64,000 nucleotides of DNA from Planctomycetota bacterium (GTDB lineage Bacteria; Planctomycetota; Phycisphaerae; Phycisphaerales; UBA1924). The stretch is from contig CAUJHH010000072.1 in the NCBI GenBank assembly GCA_963204725.1, forward strand, positions 1 through 64,000. Reading direction: 5' to 3'. The notes under the pieces were generated by a model. It saw nothing but the letters and a program-made list of their open reading frames with translations. It had not been told where the DNA came from and did no database searches. Shown here piece by piece: positions 37,330-64,000 of this stretch (within the stretch, counting starts at the first letter, position 1; every line of letters starts with the position of its first letter). A program made the translations under genes and the position numbers.

Positions 37330-38019
37330 TCACGCACGACGACGGCGACCGACGAGGCCCATCGCGCCCAGCAGGGCCAGTGACGAGGGGGCCGGGACAA
37401 CGATGTCCGTGAAGCCCGTGAGGACCGTCACGTCGTTGTCGCCGGACGACAGGAAGTCGACCGCGACCGTCAGCGTACCGAAGCCCGACAGGTCCGGACC
37501 GGCGACGGGGCCGGTGGCGAACGAGCCATAGGTGTGGAGCGAGCCGGCAGGGCCAGCGCCGAACGCGGCTGACGCACCGACATCAACGCCCAGGTCGGTC
37601 GGACCATCAACCCACGAGCGCTGGATCGTGCCGAAGCCGCCCGTGGTTGAGATGGAGACGCCGTTGCCGCGGAAGTCGGTCATGCCACCGACGATCGACG
37701 AGACGATCGTCGTCGCTCCGGCGTCAAGCGTGATCGGCATCGAGAACGTGAACGCGAACGTCGAGGCGGCGCCGAAGTCGGTCACGGCCAGGCCGTAAGC
37801 GATCGTCGCGCCCGCATCCCGGGGCGTCTCCAGCGCTTCGACGACGGTGTCGCCGAAGTTGTAGATCGCCGGAACGAGGCGGAACTGGCCATCGACCTCA
37901 AACGACTCGAGCTCATAGCTCGAGCCATCGATCAGGACGGAAGCCACAGGGCCGGCCGAAGCCAAGCCCGCCAAGGACGCAATGGCCGCGGTGGCGGCAA
38001 TGTATCGAGCGAAACGCAT
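37330..38019 (-). CDS. PEP-CTERM-like surface protein
   Basis: A 229-residue exported protein. It has a signal peptide (ARYIAATAAIASLAGLASA, cut near residue 22), a beta-rich body of low similarity, and a C-terminal sorting signal VPAPSSLALLGAMGLVGRRRRA: a Pro-containing motif, a hydrophobic helix and an arginine end. This is the VPAP variant common in planctomycetes, recognised by exosortase-type systems. The body shows no recognised enzyme motif. It has AGAGGAG about eight bases before the ATG and a strong hairpin after the stop. Confidence 0.8.
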   Translation of the reverse strand: MRFARYIAATAAIASLAGLASAGPVASVLIDGSSYELESFEVDGQFRLVPAIYNFGDTVVEALETPRDAGATIAYGLAVTDFGAASTFAFTFSMPITLDAGATTIVSSIVGGMTDFRGNGVSISTTGGFGTIQRSWVDGPTDLGVDVGASAAFGAGPAGSLHTYGSFATGPVAGPDLSGFGTLTVAVDFLSSGDNDVTVLTGFTDIVVPAPSSLALLGAMGLVGRRRRA

Positions 38020-51758: not shown

Positions 51759-53222
51759 ATGCAGGCGCAGCTCGCAAAGTTGGCAGCCGAAGCCCAGAGC
51801 GCCGTCGAGCGTGCCGACTTCGGTCGCGCGATCAAGCCGCTCCAGGAACTCGCACGGGCCGTGCCCGGCGAGCCCGATCTGCACTTCAGGCTCGGCATGT
51901 GCCACGCCCACCTCGGGCAGCATGCCGAGGGGCGTGCATCGATCGATCGCGCCGTACGCCTCAAGCCCGATGAACCCAAGTTCTACTGCGGCCTCGCGTT
52001 CATCTCCCGCAGAGAAGGAAAGATCGCTAAGGCCCAGAAGGAGATGGATCGAGCGCTCGAGGCGAATCCGGCGCACGAGCCCTCGCTGAAACTCAAGGCC
52101 GAGTTGCTCTTCTTCGCCGATGACGCCGAAGGCGCGTGCCGCGTGATCGAAGAGGCGAACGCCGCCGGCGTTTCTTCCCCGATGCTCGATATCGCATTCG
52201 GGCTCTTCTGCGCCAGCATCGGTAAAGCGCAGGACGGGATCCGGCGGCTCGAGGCCGTCGTCGCCTCGCCCGATCTCGCGCCCCGGCCACGCGCAACCGC
52301 GCTCTTCCGGCTCGCGGCTCTCTATGACAAGGTCAAGCGGTTCGACGATGCCTGGGACGCCTACGTGCGCGCCAACTCGCTCGGACCGAAGCGCTTCAAT
52401 GCGCCGCTCAACAAGGCCTCTGCCGAGCGCATAATCGACACATGGACTCCGGATGTCGTGGCCCGCGCCCCCCGGGCACGCCGAGCTGGCGAGCGGCTCG
52501 TCTTCATTGTCGGCATGTCCCGCTCGGGCACCTCGCTCGTCGAACAGATCGTCGCCAGCCACCCAAAGGCCTACGGCGCGGGTGAGCTCCTCGACATGAT
52601 CATCATCGCCAACGAGCTGCGCCTCTCGGACTTCCCTGCAGCGGGCCAGGTCCACCACCCCGAGCGCCTCAGCCAGCTCGCTGTCGACGACGCCGCGCGC
52701 CGCTACCACGAGATGGCCTCGAAGCGTGCACCGGGTGCCGCGAAGTTCACCGACAAGAATCCCTTCAACTACCAGCACATCGGCCTGATCCACCTGATGT
52801 TCCCCGGGGCCAAGGTGATCTGGTGCAGGCGAAATCCCATCGATGTCTGCGTCTCAAACTACTTCCAGGACTTCGAGGACAGCATCCCCTTCGCATCCGA
52901 TCTCGGGCACCTCGCGCTCATGCACCGGCTGCACGAGCAGCTCATGCAGCACTGGCAGCGCCTCTTTTCCGGCATGATCATGGAACTCCACTACGACGAT
53001 CTCGTCGATCACCAGGAGGCCAAGACGCGCGACCTCCTCTCGTTCATCGGGCTCCCGTGGGACGAGCGATGCATGCGGTTTTATGAGTCTGACCGGATCA
53101 CCGTCACCGCGTCAAACGACCAGGTGCGCAAGCCTCTCTACAAGTCGTCGGGCCGATACTCGCCGTACGAGAAGCACCTCGCGCAGTTGCGCAAAGACCT
53201 CGGGCTTGCGCCCGCGGAGTGA
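51759..53222 (+). CDS. TPR-domain sulfotransferase (first of tandem pair)
   Basis: A 487-residue protein. About 230 residues of tetratricopeptide-type helices ('LQELARAVPGEPDLHFRLGMCHAHLGQHAEGRASIDRAVRLKP') precede a sulfotransferase domain at about 245-487. The domain has 5'-PSB motif 'RLVFIVGMSRSGTSLVEQIVASHP' (PAPS binding) and 3'-PB motif 'IWCRRNPIDVCVSNYFQDF'. It would transfer sulfate from PAPS to an unknown acceptor; protein or glycan sulfation is typical of planctomycetes. The next gene is a paralog. The SD GAGGAG lies before the ATG. Confidence 0.85.
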   Translation: MQAQLAKLAAEAQSAVERADFGRAIKPLQELARAVPGEPDLHFRLGMCHAHLGQHAEGRASIDRAVRLKPDEPKFYCGLAFISRREGKIAKAQKEMDRALEANPAHEPSLKLKAELLFFADDAEGACRVIEEANAAGVSSPMLDIAFGLFCASIGKAQDGIRRLEAVVASPDLAPRPRATALFRLAALYDKVKRFDDAWDAYVRANSLGPKRFNAPLNKASAERIIDTWTPDVVARAPRARRAGERLVFIVGMSRSGTSLVEQIVASHPKAYGAGELLDMIIIANELRLSDFPAAGQVHHPERLSQLAVDDAARRYHEMASKRAPGAAKFTDKNPFNYQHIGLIHLMFPGAKVIWCRRNPIDVCVSNYFQDFEDSIPFASDLGHLALMHRLHEQLMQHWQRLFSGMIMELHYDDLVDHQEAKTRDLLSFIGLPWDERCMRFYESDRITVTASNDQVRKPLYKSSGRYSPYEKHLAQLRKDLGLAPAE

Positions 53223-53231
53223 TCGACCCGC

Positions 53232-54728
53232 GTGATCGCCCGCACCGGAATGGGGCCAGGCATGTCCATGCAGTCGCCGCGACCCGGCGTGAACGAGGCG
53301 AGACTGGCGTTCGAGAGCGGCGATCCCCGCGCCACGATGAAGGCGGCGAGCGCCGCGCTCGCGGCCTCTCCCCGTGACCCGCAACTCCACTGGATGCTCG
53401 GCGCGTCGCTGCTCGTCCTGAATCGTCTCACGGAGGCCCGGGCGTCGCTCGAACGCGCCGACACACTCGCCCCGGGGCAGCCGGGTATCTGCTGCGCGCT
53501 CGCATCACTCGCGCGTCGCGAGGGCGATGTCCGCCAGGCGATCCGCCATGCCGATCGCGCGATCGGGGCCGCGCCCGGGCTCGATCTGGCCCTGCGCATG
53601 AAGTCCGAACTGCTGCACATGACCGGCGATTCGCTCGGCGCATGCCGCGTAGTGGACGAGGCGATCGCCCGTGGACTCGCGTCTGCCTCGCTGGAACTCG
53701 CCTTCGGCCTCGCGTGCGCCAGCGCGGATCGCGCGGCCGAAGGAGAGCGGCGGCTGCGCTCGCTGCTCGGCACGCCGGGCCTCTCTCCCCCGGTTGTCGC
53801 GACCGGATCGTTCCGGCTCGGGCATCTGCTCGACCGACTCGGGCGTCACGACGAGGCCTGGGCCGCGTTCGTCGATGCCAACCGCGCGCGGGCCCGACGA
53901 TTCGACATCACCCGCACGCTCGCATCGTTCGAGGGCATCATCCGAGGGTGGACGCCCGGCGCGATCGCCCGCACGCCCCGCTCACGACTCTCGGGCGAGC
54001 GATTCGTCTTCATTGTCGGCATGCCTCGCGCAGGCACCTCGCTCGTCGAGCAGATCGTCGCAAGCCATCCGAAGGCCTACGGCGGCGGCGAGCTCTCCGA
54101 TCTGATTCTCCTCTCCGCCGGGCTCGGACACTCGGACATGCCGGGCCTCGGACACGTCCATCACCCCGAGCAGCTGAAGCAGGGTGAAGTCGACGAGGCG
54201 GCACGCGCATACCAGCGCATGGCCGCCGCCCGCGGGCCGAACGCGACGCGCTTTACCGACAAGAACCCGCTCAACTTCCCGTGCATCGGCGTCGCACAGA
54301 CGCTCCTGCCGGGCAGCAAGGTGATCTGGTGTCGTCGAGACCCGCTCGATGTCTGCGTCTCGATCTACATGCAGGACTTCGAGCAGGGTCTCCCCTTCGC
54401 GACGGACCTGCGCCAGATCGCGGCGATGCACCGCGCGCACGAGCGAGTCATGCTCCATTGGAAGTCGGTCTATCCCGGCGCGGTGATGGAGCTGCACCAT
54501 GGGGAGCTCGTCGATCACCAGGAAGAAGTCACGCGTGAACTGCTTTCGTTCATCGGGCTCCCGTGGGACGAGCGGTGCCTGAAGTTCTATGAATCCGACC
54601 GGATCACCGTGACCGCATCGAACGACCAAGTCCGCCGACCCCTCTACAAGTCCACTGGCCGATACGCGCCATACCAGAAGCACCTTGCGCAGCTGCGTCT
54701 GGACCTGGGACTTCCCGCAACGCCATGA
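53232..54728 (+). CDS. TPR-domain sulfotransferase (second of tandem pair)
   Basis: A 498-residue paralog of the preceding protein with the same order: TPR helices (about 20-240), then the sulfotransferase domain. The PAPS 5'-PSB motif is in 'RFVFIVGMPRAGTSLVEQIVASHP' and the 3'-PB motif in 'IWCRRDPLDVCVSIYMQDF'. The last 75 residues ('GLPWDERCLKFYESDRITVTASNDQVRRPLYKSTGRYAPY') are almost identical to the upstream copy. The GTG at 53232 is used; ATGs at 53250, 53262 and 53268 are alternatives. Confidence 0.83.
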   Translation: MIARTGMGPGMSMQSPRPGVNEARLAFESGDPRATMKAASAALAASPRDPQLHWMLGASLLVLNRLTEARASLERADTLAPGQPGICCALASLARREGDVRQAIRHADRAIGAAPGLDLALRMKSELLHMTGDSLGACRVVDEAIARGLASASLELAFGLACASADRAAEGERRLRSLLGTPGLSPPVVATGSFRLGHLLDRLGRHDEAWAAFVDANRARARRFDITRTLASFEGIIRGWTPGAIARTPRSRLSGERFVFIVGMPRAGTSLVEQIVASHPKAYGGGELSDLILLSAGLGHSDMPGLGHVHHPEQLKQGEVDEAARAYQRMAAARGPNATRFTDKNPLNFPCIGVAQTLLPGSKVIWCRRDPLDVCVSIYMQDFEQGLPFATDLRQIAAMHRAHERVMLHWKSVYPGAVMELHHGELVDHQEEVTRELLSFIGLPWDERCLKFYESDRITVTASNDQVRRPLYKSTGRYAPYQKHLAQLRLDLGLPATP

Positions 54729-58739: not shown

Positions 58740-58859
58740 GCAGGGCTCGCGCAGTTCGAAGAGGCACTCTCCGCCACCGCTCCTTCAAAGTTCTCAAGAA
58801 TTGCGCGATCGATTCACGGGTTCATCCGTCGCCAGCATGCCAGCATGCGATGATTGTGC

Positions 58860-61616
58860 ATGCACACGCCCGATCCCTACGAACTCGTGACCGGCGCGCT
58901 CGACGAGGTTGCCTCCGGGCCCCACGCCGCCGCCCGCGATCTGGCCGGATCACTCGCCGCTCTCTGCGCCGGAGCGTCCGGTCCCGGCGCGAGCGATCGT
59001 GACCCAGCCGAAGCCCGACGACTCATCGGCGCGCGCACGACCAGCGATCTCCTCGCCATGATTCGCTACCTCACGGTGCGCTTCCACCTCCTGAACAACG
59101 CGGAGAAGGCCACCATCACGCGCATCAACAGGGAACGCGAGCTCGCCGAGACCTTCGAGCGTCCGCGCGCCGAGTCCATCGCCGAGGGGCTCCTCACCAT
59201 CGCCCGCGCCGGTCTCACCGCCGATCAGTCGCTCTCGCTCCTGAACAAGCTCGACATCCAGCCCACGCTGACCGCCCATCCGACCGAGTCCCGTCGGCGC
59301 AGCCTCCAGCTCATGCTCCGCGAGGTCTCGGAGCTCATCGGCACGAGCCAGAGCGATCGCGCCTCGCCGGTGCAGCGCCGCGCCGCCGAGTCGCGTCTCC
59401 GCCAGGTCGCCACCATGCTCCTCCTGACCGACGAAGTGCGGGCCCGCCGCCTGAGTGTGCTCGACGAGGTGCGCAACGGTCTCCACTTCCTCACGGGCTC
59501 CATCTGGGACTCGGTTCCGCTGCTCGCACGCGACCTTGTCGACGGCCTCCGGGGCATCCACGGCGACGCCGCAAGCCACATCACCATCGCGCACCTCCCC
59601 CCCCTGCTTCGCTACCGAACCTGGATCGGTGGCGACCGGGATGGCAATCCGCGCGTTACCAGCGACGCCACGCGCGAGGCCCTCGCCATGCTCGCCAGCT
59701 CCGCCCGCGCGAAGTTCGCGTTCGAGCTCGAACGCCTGCGTCAGGAGCTCAGCGTCTCCGACCGGCGCTGCCACGTTCCGAAGTCTCTCTGGGAGTCGAT
59801 CGCGCGGGACGCCGCCTTCGACGCGCCCGACGCCGACATCCGCTCCCACGCGAGCCACGAGCCCTTCCGCCTCCGCATCCTCCAGATCATGGCACGAGTG
59901 CGCCGCGATCCCTCGTACGCCGCCGGGCTGCTCATCTCCGACCTCGAGGAGATCGTCGAGTGCCTCCACGCCGTCGGTCTCGGCACCTGCGCCGACGAAG
60001 GGCCCCTCGCCACACTGATCTACCGCGTCCGCGTCTTCGGCCTCCATATGGCCAGCCTCGACATCCGCCAGCACTCGGCCGTCCACGAACGCGCCGTCGC
60101 CGAGCTGCTCCGTGTCAGCGCGGTCAGCGACTCCTACGAGTCGCTCGACGAATCCGCTCGCATGGCGGTCCTGCGCTCCGAACTCGCAAGCCCGAGGCCG
60201 CTCCTGCCGCCCGGCGCAACGCTCTCACCCGAGACCGCGGAGCTGATGGCCGTGCTCCGCGTCGTCGCCGAAGCGAAGGCGACCGAGCCCGATTCGGTGC
60301 AGGCGTACGTCGTCTCCATGACCCACGCACCCAGCGACCTGCTCGAGGTCCTGCTGCTCATGAAGGAAGTCGGCCTCTATCGATCCGGCACATCGCCGGA
60401 TGCTCCCGCCACCAGCGGCCTCGATGTCGTTCCACTGCTTGAGACGATCGATGATCTGAAGCGAGGTCCGGAACTGCTCGAGACACTCTTCGCCGAGCCC
60501 GCCTTCATGGCGCACCTCCGCGCCCGCGGCCGGAAGGAAACCTGCGACGCCACGCCATTCATCGAGATCATGCTCGGCTACTCCGACTCCAACAAGGACG
60601 GCGGCTTCCTCATGGCCAACGTCGCGCTCCGCGAAGCCCAGGAGAGCATCGGAAACGCCTGCGCCGGCCAGGGCGTCGCCTTCCGCCTCTTCCACGGTCG
60701 AGGCGGCACCGTCGGTCGTGGCGGCGGCCGCGCCAACCGCGCCATCCTCTCCATGCCCCTCCCCGCGCACAACGGACGCATCCGCTTCACCGAGCAGGGC
60801 GAGGTCATCTCCTTCCGCTACGGCGTCCCCGCCATCGCCAAGCGCCACCTTGAGCAGATCGTCAGCGCCATGATCGTCTCCGCCCAACAGGGAGGCGTCG
60901 TCGGCAAGGGAGCCGAGCCCTCGCGCCCCGACGGCGCGAGCGGTCTCATCGACAAGATGGCCGAACGCTCCATGCTCGCCTACCGCGCGCTCATCGAGGA
61001 CCCTCGGTTCTGGCCATGGTTCATGGCCGCCAGCCCTGTCCAGCACATCGGCGGCTTGCCGATCGCCTCCCGCCCCGTCGCCCGCACCGGGGGCGACCTC
61101 ACGTTCGACTCCCTCCGCGCCATCCCGTGGGTCTTCTCATGGATCCAGATGCGCTACCTCGCTCCTTCGTGGTACGGTCTCGGCGCCGCCTTCGATGCGA
61201 TGAGCCCCTCCGAACTCGCGTGGTGCCGCACGGCCTATCAGGAGTGGCCCTTCTTCCAGACCGTGATCGACAACGCGCAGCGCGAGATGGCCCGGGCCCG
61301 CCTTGAGACTTCACGCTTCTACGCGAAGGAGCACGAGCACGGCGAGGCCCTGCACGACCTGCTCGAGCGTGACTTCAACGCCGCCCGCGCCGCGATCCTC
61401 TCCATCACCGGCCAGTCCTACCTCCTGGAGAGCGAGCCCGTGATCGCCCGCGCCATCGACGCCCGCAACCCGTGGACGGATGTCCTGAATCTCGCGCAGG
61501 TCGAACTCCTCCGCCGCGCCCGCGACGAGTCCTCAACCGAAGACCCGGAGCAGCTCCAGCAGGCGATCTACGCCAGCATCAACGCCATCGCCGCCGCCAT
61601 GCAGTCCACCGGCTGA
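58860..61616 (+). CDS. ppc: Phosphoenolpyruvate carboxylase
   Basis: Makes oxaloacetate from phosphoenolpyruvate and bicarbonate, replenishing the TCA cycle. The 918-residue protein has the catalytic histidine motif LTAHPTESRRR (about residue 140), 'GGDRDGNPRVT' (about 260), the GYSDSNKDGG motif (about 575) and FHGRGGTVGRGGGR (about 615), all conserved in bacterial PEPC. The C-terminus ends MQSTG, close to the usual NTG. The ATG at 58860 is the first after a TTG, with a poor SD. Its 3' neighbour is the AT-rich HEPN island. Confidence 0.93.
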   Translation: MHTPDPYELVTGALDEVASGPHAAARDLAGSLAALCAGASGPGASDRDPAEARRLIGARTTSDLLAMIRYLTVRFHLLNNAEKATITRINRERELAETFERPRAESIAEGLLTIARAGLTADQSLSLLNKLDIQPTLTAHPTESRRRSLQLMLREVSELIGTSQSDRASPVQRRAAESRLRQVATMLLLTDEVRARRLSVLDEVRNGLHFLTGSIWDSVPLLARDLVDGLRGIHGDAASHITIAHLPPLLRYRTWIGGDRDGNPRVTSDATREALAMLASSARAKFAFELERLRQELSVSDRRCHVPKSLWESIARDAAFDAPDADIRSHASHEPFRLRILQIMARVRRDPSYAAGLLISDLEEIVECLHAVGLGTCADEGPLATLIYRVRVFGLHMASLDIRQHSAVHERAVAELLRVSAVSDSYESLDESARMAVLRSELASPRPLLPPGATLSPETAELMAVLRVVAEAKATEPDSVQAYVVSMTHAPSDLLEVLLLMKEVGLYRSGTSPDAPATSGLDVVPLLETIDDLKRGPELLETLFAEPAFMAHLRARGRKETCDATPFIEIMLGYSDSNKDGGFLMANVALREAQESIGNACAGQGVAFRLFHGRGGTVGRGGGRANRAILSMPLPAHNGRIRFTEQGEVISFRYGVPAIAKRHLEQIVSAMIVSAQQGGVVGKGAEPSRPDGASGLIDKMAERSMLAYRALIEDPRFWPWFMAASPVQHIGGLPIASRPVARTGGDLTFDSLRAIPWVFSWIQMRYLAPSWYGLGAAFDAMSPSELAWCRTAYQEWPFFQTVIDNAQREMARARLETSRFYAKEHEHGEALHDLLERDFNAARAAILSITGQSYLLESEPVIARAIDARNPWTDVLNLAQVELLRRARDESSTEDPEQLQQAIYASINAIAAAMQSTG

Positions 61617-61677: not shown

Positions 61678-61704
61678 TTGGCATGCCGTGTTCTGTAGTA
61701 TAAT
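61678..61704 (+). promoter_or_regulatory. Sigma-70-like promoter of the AT-rich island
   Basis: TTGGCA at 61678-61683 and a perfect TATAAT at 61699-61704 are 15 bases apart, slightly short of the ideal 17 but convincing. They lie 100 bases upstream of the HEPN gene and mark the start of the AT-rich segment. Just before it, CAGGTGCACCTG at 61627-61638 is a perfect 12-base palindrome that could be an operator. Confidence 0.6.
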
Positions 61705-61804
61705 ACCGCGATGACAGCGCAACAGCCACAATGGATGCATGGCCTACGTGTTATAGCAAGTGTAGTATCTCTACGGAAATGATCATGAATCAGGATCGGA
61801 ATAA

Positions 61805-62767
61805 ATGATAAGTGTAATGTCAATAGACAGATGCATTGTTGATAAACATATCTCGCTGTTATACCCGAATATTATGCTCGCTGAGCCCGTTGTTGACGTG
61901 ATGGAGGGGATCAAAATCCGTCGGGCTACCGACGAAGAGGCAGTTCTCTTGCATCATGTGCTGCTACAACACACCGGGCTCTGCCATCACAAGTGGCTTG
62001 TAAGTGCATTGGAAGGCGCAGCCAATGAATGGATAGATGATGGCGTAAGCACCATTGTATGTAGCATGGAAATCGCGAAGCGATACTACGTATCGGACAT
62101 GCCACTCGTAGCAACCGAGAGCGCAACTACACGATATTCGCACCGTCTGCTCGAGGCGTCGTCTCTGGTTGGTAGAGCAGTTGAAACCCTGTTTGCAGTG
62201 CAAAACAATGGCAAACTAGTGATGGACCCATCGCTAGCATCGATTGATGCATATGCACAATTCGACAGGCGCCCATTCATTCGAGTCGATTCGGACTATG
62301 CCAAGCAAGTGCGGCATTTGCGTAGTTTGCTGGATAAGCATGTAACAAGGGATTCATTATTCAGTTATGCGATGTCGCTATGGTACAATCAGCGGCTTAT
62401 GCCTCGGGCGCACATGTGGTCACTCTTGAGCCACATATCCATCTTGGAGTTGCTGCTGTTTGAAGACTCCCGTGGTGCCGGAAGGATGGCTGAGATGGTC
62501 GCTTGCCGTGTAGATTTGTGGTCTGAGCGCATGAGGCAAGGTATTAGCTATGCGCAATTTGGTTGTTCGTCGAGCGAAGCATGGATGCATTTGTACAAGA
62601 TACGTAATGCTATTGCGCATGGCAAAATGATAGGTAACAAGAATCCAGATATTCTGAAAGTGGGACCAATGGAGCGGTGTGTGGAATTCGTGCAGGATGT
62701 GGTGCGCCGCATCCTGGTGCAGGGATTGGAGGAACCGCCGTTGTTGCTTGCTCTCAGGCGTTGCTAA
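61805..62767 (+). CDS. HEPN-domain protein on an AT-rich island
   Basis: A 320-residue protein whose C-terminal part carries the HEPN motif 'LYKIRNAIAHGK': Arg267 and His272 form the RxxxxH pair used by HEPN RNases, preceded by helices like 'LLSHISILELLLFEDSRGAGRMAEMVACRVDLWSERM'. This layout is closest to the ApeA-like HEPN class found in defence and toxin systems. The gene is strikingly AT-rich compared with everything around it, has its own promoter-like sequence and no adjacent antitoxin. Role is inferred. ATGs at 61817 and 61874 are alternative starts; AGGA precedes 61805. Confidence 0.72.
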   Translation: MISVMSIDRCIVDKHISLLYPNIMLAEPVVDVMEGIKIRRATDEEAVLLHHVLLQHTGLCHHKWLVSALEGAANEWIDDGVSTIVCSMEIAKRYYVSDMPLVATESATTRYSHRLLEASSLVGRAVETLFAVQNNGKLVMDPSLASIDAYAQFDRRPFIRVDSDYAKQVRHLRSLLDKHVTRDSLFSYAMSLWYNQRLMPRAHMWSLLSHISILELLLFEDSRGAGRMAEMVACRVDLWSERMRQGISYAQFGCSSSEAWMHLYKIRNAIAHGKMIGNKNPDILKVGPMERCVEFVQDVVRRILVQGLEEPPLLLALRRC

Positions 62768-62798
62768 CATTCAGTGTTGCCGAGTCGAAAGGGCCGCC

Positions 62799-64000
62799 AT
62801 GCTTAGTATATGTCTTACTGTATGCGTGCTCGCGTCCGCCGATCCCCCGCCCGCCCCCGTCGGCGCGCTCCCCACGGAGCCGCAGATCCGCTGGCACGAG
62901 CGCGAGTTCTGCGGCTTCATCCACTTCACCACCAACACCTTCACCGACAAGGAGTGGGGGTTCGGCGACGAAACCCCCGAGATCTTCGATCCCACCGCTC
63001 TCGACACAGACCAGTGGGCACGCGTAGCGAAAGCCGCGGGCATGACCGGCCTGATCCTCACCGCCAAGCACCACGACGGCTTCTGTCTCTGGCCCTCCGC
63101 ATTCACCGAGCACTCGGTCAAGGCCAGCCCCTGGAAGGGCGGCACAGGCGACGTGGTGGGGGACCTCGCCAAATCGTGCGCCGGACAGAAGATCGGCTTC
63201 GGTATCTACCTCTCCCCCTGGGACCGCAACCACGCCCGCTACGGCTCGCCCGAATATGTCGCGTACTACCGCGCCCAGCTCCAGGAACTCATCGAGACCT
63301 ACGGACCCGTCTTCGAGGTCTGGCACGACGGCGCGAACGGCGGCGACGGTTTCTACGGCGGAGCCCGCGAGAGCCGCACCATCGACAAGACCTCCTACTA
63401 CGGCTGGCCCGCGACGTGGAACCTCGTCCATCACCTCGCCCCCGACGCGATCATCTTCAGCGATGTCGGGCCCGGCTGCCGCTGGGTCGGCAACGAGCGG
63501 GGCATCAGCTCAGAGACCTCATGGCAGACCATCACCGTCGATGGCATGATGCCCGGCATGGACGTCAAGCGACTCGATACCGGCGACCCGGCGGGCACGC
63601 GCTGGATCGGTGTTGAGGCCGACGTCTCCATCCGCCCCGGCTGGTTCTACCACGCCTCAGAGGACGACAAGATCAAGACCCCCGAGCAACTCATCGAGAT
63701 CTGGTACGCCTCTGTCGGACGCGGCGCGAACCTCCTCCTGAACATCCCGCCCGACCGCCGAGGCCTCATCCACGAGCACGACGCCGCCTCGCTGACCGAG
63801 TTCCGCAGCATCCTCGACCAGACCTTCGACGAAGACCTCACGCAGGGCGCACACATCTCCTCGGAGCACGTGCGCTCCGCCGCCGACGCTCGCTACGGGC
63901 CCGCCAATCTCCTCGACCGCGACCCGGAGACCTACTGGACAACGCCCGACGGCATCACTTCCGCCTCCGTCGTCCTCGATCTTCCCGAGCCCCGCACGCT
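62799..64000 (+). CDS. GH29 alpha-L-fucosidase, 3' end missing
   Basis: At least 400 residues; the window ends before the stop. After a short signal-like start (LSICLTVCVLASADPPP) the glycoside hydrolase family 29 domain runs from 'IRWHEREFCGFIHFTTNTFTDKEWGFGDE'. It includes 'GLILTAKHHDGFCLWPSAFTEHSVK', 'FGIYLSPWDRNHARYGSPEY' and 'FEVWHDGANGGDGFYGG', where Asp in VWHDG is the likely nucleophile. A possible galactose-binding-like (F5/8) domain begins near the end ('ADARYGPANLLDRDPETYWTTPDG'). It releases fucose from glycans outside the cell; marine polysaccharide use is typical of planctomycetes. The start codon region is AT-rich like the HEPN island. Confidence 0.85.
   Translation, partial: MLSICLTVCVLASADPPPAPVGALPTEPQIRWHEREFCGFIHFTTNTFTDKEWGFGDETPEIFDPTALDTDQWARVAKAAGMTGLILTAKHHDGFCLWPSAFTEHSVKASPWKGGTGDVVGDLAKSCAGQKIGFGIYLSPWDRNHARYGSPEYVAYYRAQLQELIETYGPVFEVWHDGANGGDGFYGGARESRTIDKTSYYGWPATWNLVHHLAPDAIIFSDVGPGCRWVGNERGISSETSWQTITVDGMMPGMDVKRLDTGDPAGTRWIGVEADVSIRPGWFYHASEDDKIKTPEQLIEIWYASVGRGANLLLNIPPDRRGLIHEHDAASLTEFRSILDQTFDEDLTQGAHISSEHVRSAADARYGPANLLDRDPETYWTTPDGITSASVVLDLPEPRT

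Follow-up and report, generated by a model that had tools for sequence, protein, structure and literature searches.

A recently inserted, GC-poor gene between ppc and a fucosidase gene of a planctomycete encodes a new HEPN protein, probably an RNase of anti-phage or toxin type that acts alone

How did a solitary, GC-poor gene come to lie between a phosphoenolpyruvate carboxylase gene and an alpha-L-fucosidase-like gene in a planctomycete, and what might its product do? We analyzed the 64,000-nucleotide stretch of DNA that carries this locus, here called the window. A sequence-only reading had described an AT-rich island with its own promoter-like sequence and a gene for an ApeA-like HEPN protein, acting either alone or as the remnant of a larger acquired module. 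The locus is composed of the following features.

58854..61616, + strand: ppc (phosphoenolpyruvate carboxylase), upstream flank; name from the first sequence reading, orthologues 73% identical in the same-genus genomes G001 and G003
61678..61704, + strand: promoter-like TTGGCA-N15-TATAAT, second hexamer at 61699-61704; read directly, a consensus match only
61690..62798, no strand assigned: inserted AT-rich segment that separates ppc from the fucosidase gene; from the GC profile and the junction comparison with G001 and G003
61805-62767, + strand: HEPN gene, ATG start, 320 aa, intact open reading frame; homologues found
62799..64000, + strand: alpha-L-fucosidase-like gene, downstream flank, continuing past the window end; name from the first sequence reading, orthologues 75-77% identical in three same-genus genomes

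The AT-rich stretch sets in at about 61690 and ends near the fucosidase start at 62799. The coding sequence of the HEPN gene has a GC content of 49.4%, compared to 65.7% for the window. It is the GC minimum among all sliding segments of 963 bp (z = -8.3), and the next-lowest value, 60.4%, was found near 37854. Its codon use differs as well, as had been claimed from the letters: GC at codon positions 1/2/3 is 56/39/54% in the HEPN gene and 70/50/88% in ppc. These composition statistics were computed on the window and on two further 20-kb pieces of this genome.

The same junction was compared in related genomes. The gap between ppc and the fucosidase gene spans 1,182 bp in the window, where it holds the HEPN gene; in G001 and G003 the two genes adjoin each other with gaps of 38 and 65 bp and no HEPN gene between them. 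In the third same-genus genome (G002) the fucosidase gene has another upstream neighbor, and ppc was not found. A genome-wide search revealed no homologue of the HEPN gene in any of these three genomes, and hence these relatives do not keep the gene at this place with normal GC. Its foreign composition and the lack of the gene at the corresponding site of two sister species support acquisition of the segment. We conclude that this lineage recently acquired one foreign gene, which entered between two housekeeping-type genes, ppc and the fucosidase gene. Its exact ends are not readable because the short intergenic sequences of the sister species are too diverged. Target-site-type direct repeats were not seen around the island, and the short repeats that are present look like chance. 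An origin as an integron cassette was set aside by eye, since only 31 bp separate the stop codon from the next gene and no attC-like palindrome was seen. Elsewhere in the window, two adjacent and similar TPR-sulfotransferase-like genes (51759-53222 and 53232-54728) form a tandem duplication; the matching stretch of G002 (L032:3977-5449) carries a single copy.

The proposal of an own promoter held in part. The hexamers TTGGCA and TATAAT are indeed present, but the element was not listed by a consensus promoter scan, which requires a spacing of 16-18 nt and revealed no excess of promoters over shuffled sequences. The scan omits this element because its spacer is short, and a promoter function is therefore only plausible. 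The leader that follows (61705-61804) holds a small open reading frame of 23 aa (61711-61782) and another of 9 aa. The larger one starts 6 nt after the TATAAT hexamer in a frame different from that of the HEPN gene downstream, and is possibly a leader peptide or a chance occurrence. In the sister species an identical GCGCGGTACACTCCGCGCCATG block lies just before the fucosidase start (L030/L031 intergenic regions). In the window (62768-62798) no such block precedes the fucosidase ATG, so the insertion may have parted the fucosidase gene from its own promoter. We also considered the TATAAT-ATG stretch at 61695-61713 as an old fucosidase promoter that stayed behind on the upstream side of the insert and rejected it, since it aligned to the intergenic DNA of the sister species no better than shuffled sequences did.

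The encoded protein can be divided into two halves, with the following positions of interest.

61805..62281, + strand: N-terminal region, residues ~1-159; probable sensor or regulatory domain, no match to a known family
62282..62764, + strand: C-terminal HEPN domain, residues ~160-320; from AlphaFold of the aligned L039 domain and VIA-align to solved HEPN structures
62447..62449, + strand: codon of E215, an invariant acidic residue in the helix equivalent to HEPN helix 2; from the alignment and the L039 model
62603..62620, + strand: codons of R267-N-A-I-A-H272, the HEPN RX4H motif; R and H invariant in eight of eight members

Single-sequence searches against Pfam, NCBIfam, PHROGs, PADLOC and PDB sequences gave nothing significant. 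Below threshold, PF18735 (RiboL-PSP-HEPN) matched residues 246-303 only, with 16.9 bits and an E-value of 0.0062 (gathering cut-off 28.4). Further sub-threshold HEPN matches in Pfam and PADLOC were RTasHEPN (E 0.006) and CARF_HEPN (E 0.008 and 0.05). All weak profile matches of the window protein and of two homologues fell on the RX4H region. The RNAIAH motif is present as first read and is the sole RX4H in the protein. By chance at least one copy occurs in 67% of shuffles of the protein, about one being expected; what gives the motif its weight is solely its invariance across the eight family members. In the alignment of these eight, R267, H272, G273 and E215 are invariant, and the residue after the arginine is always N or S, polar as in the RX4-6H motif of the HEPN superfamily. 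The N-terminal region has conserved residues of its own, namely P28, A41 (within an IRRAT-like motif) and Y94.

The full-length window protein could not be modeled usefully (AlphaFold with six sequences, pLDDT 40). The C-terminal domain of the homologue at locus L039, modeled with the window domain in the alignment, reached a pLDDT of 84.4 and a pTM of 0.81 in the best model; two of five models were good and three poor. In this model R108 and H113 lie at the end of helix 97-112, and E54 lies in helix 44-57. The HEPN superfamily has RX4H at a helix end before a loop and an acidic residue in helix 2 (PMC3710099), and the positions in the model agree with this description. With Foldseek alone no match reached significance (best E 0.84), although HEPN toxins filled its first rows, and a BFVD fold search gave nothing significant either. 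Re-alignment of the Foldseek candidates to solved structures with VIA-align placed the HEPN toxins 8yuf, 4nqf, 8xdj, 5yep and 7ae2 and the Csm6 structure 6tug on top (Z 7.1-7.5). HEPN proteins and HEPN-type proteins associated with nucleotidyltransferases made up most of the first 23 rows, SUGP1 (8gxl) being the clear exception. Since a Z of about 7 can reflect a common helical-bundle arrangement, the assignment rests on fold, motif and helix position together. On the predicted fold of the homologue, in which the HEPN helices around RX4H do form, the invariant motif and its helix position, we regard the C-terminal half as securely assigned to the HEPN domains. The gene is thus a new, uncharacterized member of the HEPN superfamily, and in this respect the initial description was right.

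The ApeA-like label attached to the protein turned out differently. ApeA has a similar general plan, with an N-terminal domain and a C-terminal HEPN domain encoded by a single gene. However, neither PF18739 (HEPN_Apea) nor PF18862 (ApeA_NTD1) matched the window protein even at E 10; the same was true of its homologues (five in the case of PF18739), and a PF18739 profile search of the genome did not recover the HEPN gene. An ApeA-like protein from the same order (L061) clearly matches both models (PF18862, 5.6e-25). When compared by hhalign to two PF18739-positive proteins of Planctomycetota, the window protein scored a probability of 0.2%. The label therefore fails in the family sense, and we regard membership in the ApeA family proper as very improbable.

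The distribution of the family bears on what kind of gene this is. A homologue in Phycisphaera sp. isolate RI_212 matched over its full length (pairwise E 3e-5, 27% identity). This match seeded a profile, which found four more full-length members in other Planctomycetota genera (loci L037-L040). Among nearly 400 genomes sampled at class level and nearly 400 at phylum level, full-length members occurred in only five other genera. One Nostoc plasmid and one Rhodococcus opacus plasmid, both mobilizable, carry further full-length members, and no member was found in phage and viral contig collections. All full-length members measure 318-344 aa, and their identity to the window protein is only ~20%. 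At the homologue loci examined the genomic surroundings differ for every member and no neighbor recurs. Each sampled member is GC-poorer than most genes nearby (L045, 0.49 vs ~0.66; Nostoc plasmid, 0.31 vs ~0.44). Different surroundings, no recurrent neighbor and low GC together indicate that the family behaves as a rare accessory gene that travels alone. Several observations on single loci can be added. In the synteny check at the RI_212 homologue, the aconitase gene beside the S9 peptidase gene was not seen in relatives of RI_212. A Schlafen/AlbA_2-like gene (L047:8820-9878) lies 160 bp downstream of the homologue in G230 on the same strand, without repetition at other loci, and an orphan gene of 318 aa without Pfam match (L045:8950-9906) lies 44 bp downstream of the homologue in G207.

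That no partner gene is present, as had been stated, is correct: the HEPN gene is solitary at its locus, and so are its homologues. The lack of a partner, together with extra leader DNA that has only very small open reading frames, had left room for the view that the gene is a pseudogene or a leftover piece of a larger acquired module. Yet the reading frame of the window copy is open over the length usual in the family and keeps the conserved motifs of both the N- and the C-terminal part, and the full-length homologues are themselves solitary without a recurrent partner. Since the family members are full length, the window copy is not a fragment, and we give the remnant idea hardly any credence. 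The gene is intact and stands alone, and its role is probably in defense.

A solitary HEPN gene could also be the toxin of a toxin-antitoxin pair whose antitoxin has been lost, is unlinked, or consists of an RNA or a very small peptide in the 5' leader. Many HEPN proteins are toxins of such pairs (PMC3710099), the leader carries the 23-aa and 9-aa frames, and HEPN-MNT (HepT/MntA) structures, which share the HEPN fold and RX4H, are the best solved-structure matches. On the other hand, HEPN-MNT toxins are short, consist of a single domain and are linked to a nucleotidyltransferase antitoxin. Those in the fold list have ~130-147 residues and no 160-residue N-terminal domain. Neither a nucleotidyltransferase nor another antitoxin adjoins the window gene, none recurs at the homologues examined, and the neighbors are different in each genome. 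We therefore consider a toxin-antitoxin origin unlikely. The Nostoc member (WP_104902456.1, plasmid pNPM7) belongs to the same family by full-length alignment and has the motif RSCIAHG; unlike the window gene it is plasmid-borne, with a toxin-antitoxin-like pair (UPF0175/DUF3368) close by on the mobilizable element, and it is annotated by domain only.

A protein of similar plan has been studied elsewhere. Tha-1, a proven defense RNase of staphylococcal prophages, has 301 aa with a C-terminal HEPN domain at 184-296 (PMC11087260). Its motif is R265NSIMH270, the exchange H270A abolishes protection, and its N-terminal domain is not recognizable (PMC11087260). Tha-1 and Tha-2 share with the window protein a length of ~300 aa, an uncharacterized N-terminal half and a C-terminal HEPN domain with RNxIxH at nearly the same place (265-270 vs 267-272), but Tha is prophage-borne and has a known trigger, phage tail proteins. 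Kinship beyond the motif was not detectable by BLASTP (E 0.6) or hhalign, where the shallow profiles gave a probability of 1.6%, near that of shuffled controls. Kinship is thus not demonstrable, so the comparison speaks of how the protein may work and not of descent. Tha is the nearest functional model. A clearly homologous HEPN domain was found in a G802 protein (L060:5080-6042; hhalign probability 95-96%, E 6e-9) of the same size, whose gene is likewise solitary and GC-poor (0.51 vs 0.63). In this case, however, only the HEPN domain is common, and the N-terminal half has no detectable relation. In this other planctomycete the gene immediately follows a metH-like gene.

Taken together, the product of the window gene is probably an RNase of the anti-phage or toxin type that works alone and belongs to a rare family not studied so far. 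From the observed insertion, distribution and conservation and the modeled HEPN fold we infer that it is an intact foreign gene for a sensor-plus-HEPN protein, which would act as a self-contained, normally inactive defense RNase activated by a trigger; we assign this reading a probability of roughly 0.6. The N-terminal domain would sense a signal that probably comes from an invading phage or another mobile element. The HEPN domains would then act as a dimer, with E215, R267 and H272 as the putative active-site signature, and R267 and H272 would cleave RNA without a metal. Such cleavage would stop growth or kill the infected cell. A housekeeping or regulatory HEPN protein, involved in RNA processing or substrate binding and transferred by chance without a role in defense, is in our view a doubtful alternative. 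In its favor, HEPN proteins that serve as non-toxic binding domains are known (PMC3710099), and no defense island surrounds the gene. Nevertheless, an accessory gene is the better fit to the very patchy distribution, the carriage on plasmids and the insertion as a single gene, and the complete RX4H motif and the acidic residue are kept in all members.

Going beyond the defense RNase reading for this one gene, we propose more tentatively that the family might be a distinct one-gene anti-phage system. A new N-terminal sensor would directly control the HEPN RNase, and the gene would be spread thinly over Planctomycetota, Cyanobacteria and Actinomycetota, moving singly between housekeeping genes. 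None of the papers that our searches retrieved describes such a system in planctomycetes. HEPN RNases of the Tha type show that response to a phage and arrest of the cell can be combined in one protein. This Tha-like class would be broadened by a second family that has an equal layout, lacks a recognizable sequence relationship to it and has recently entered planctomycetes.
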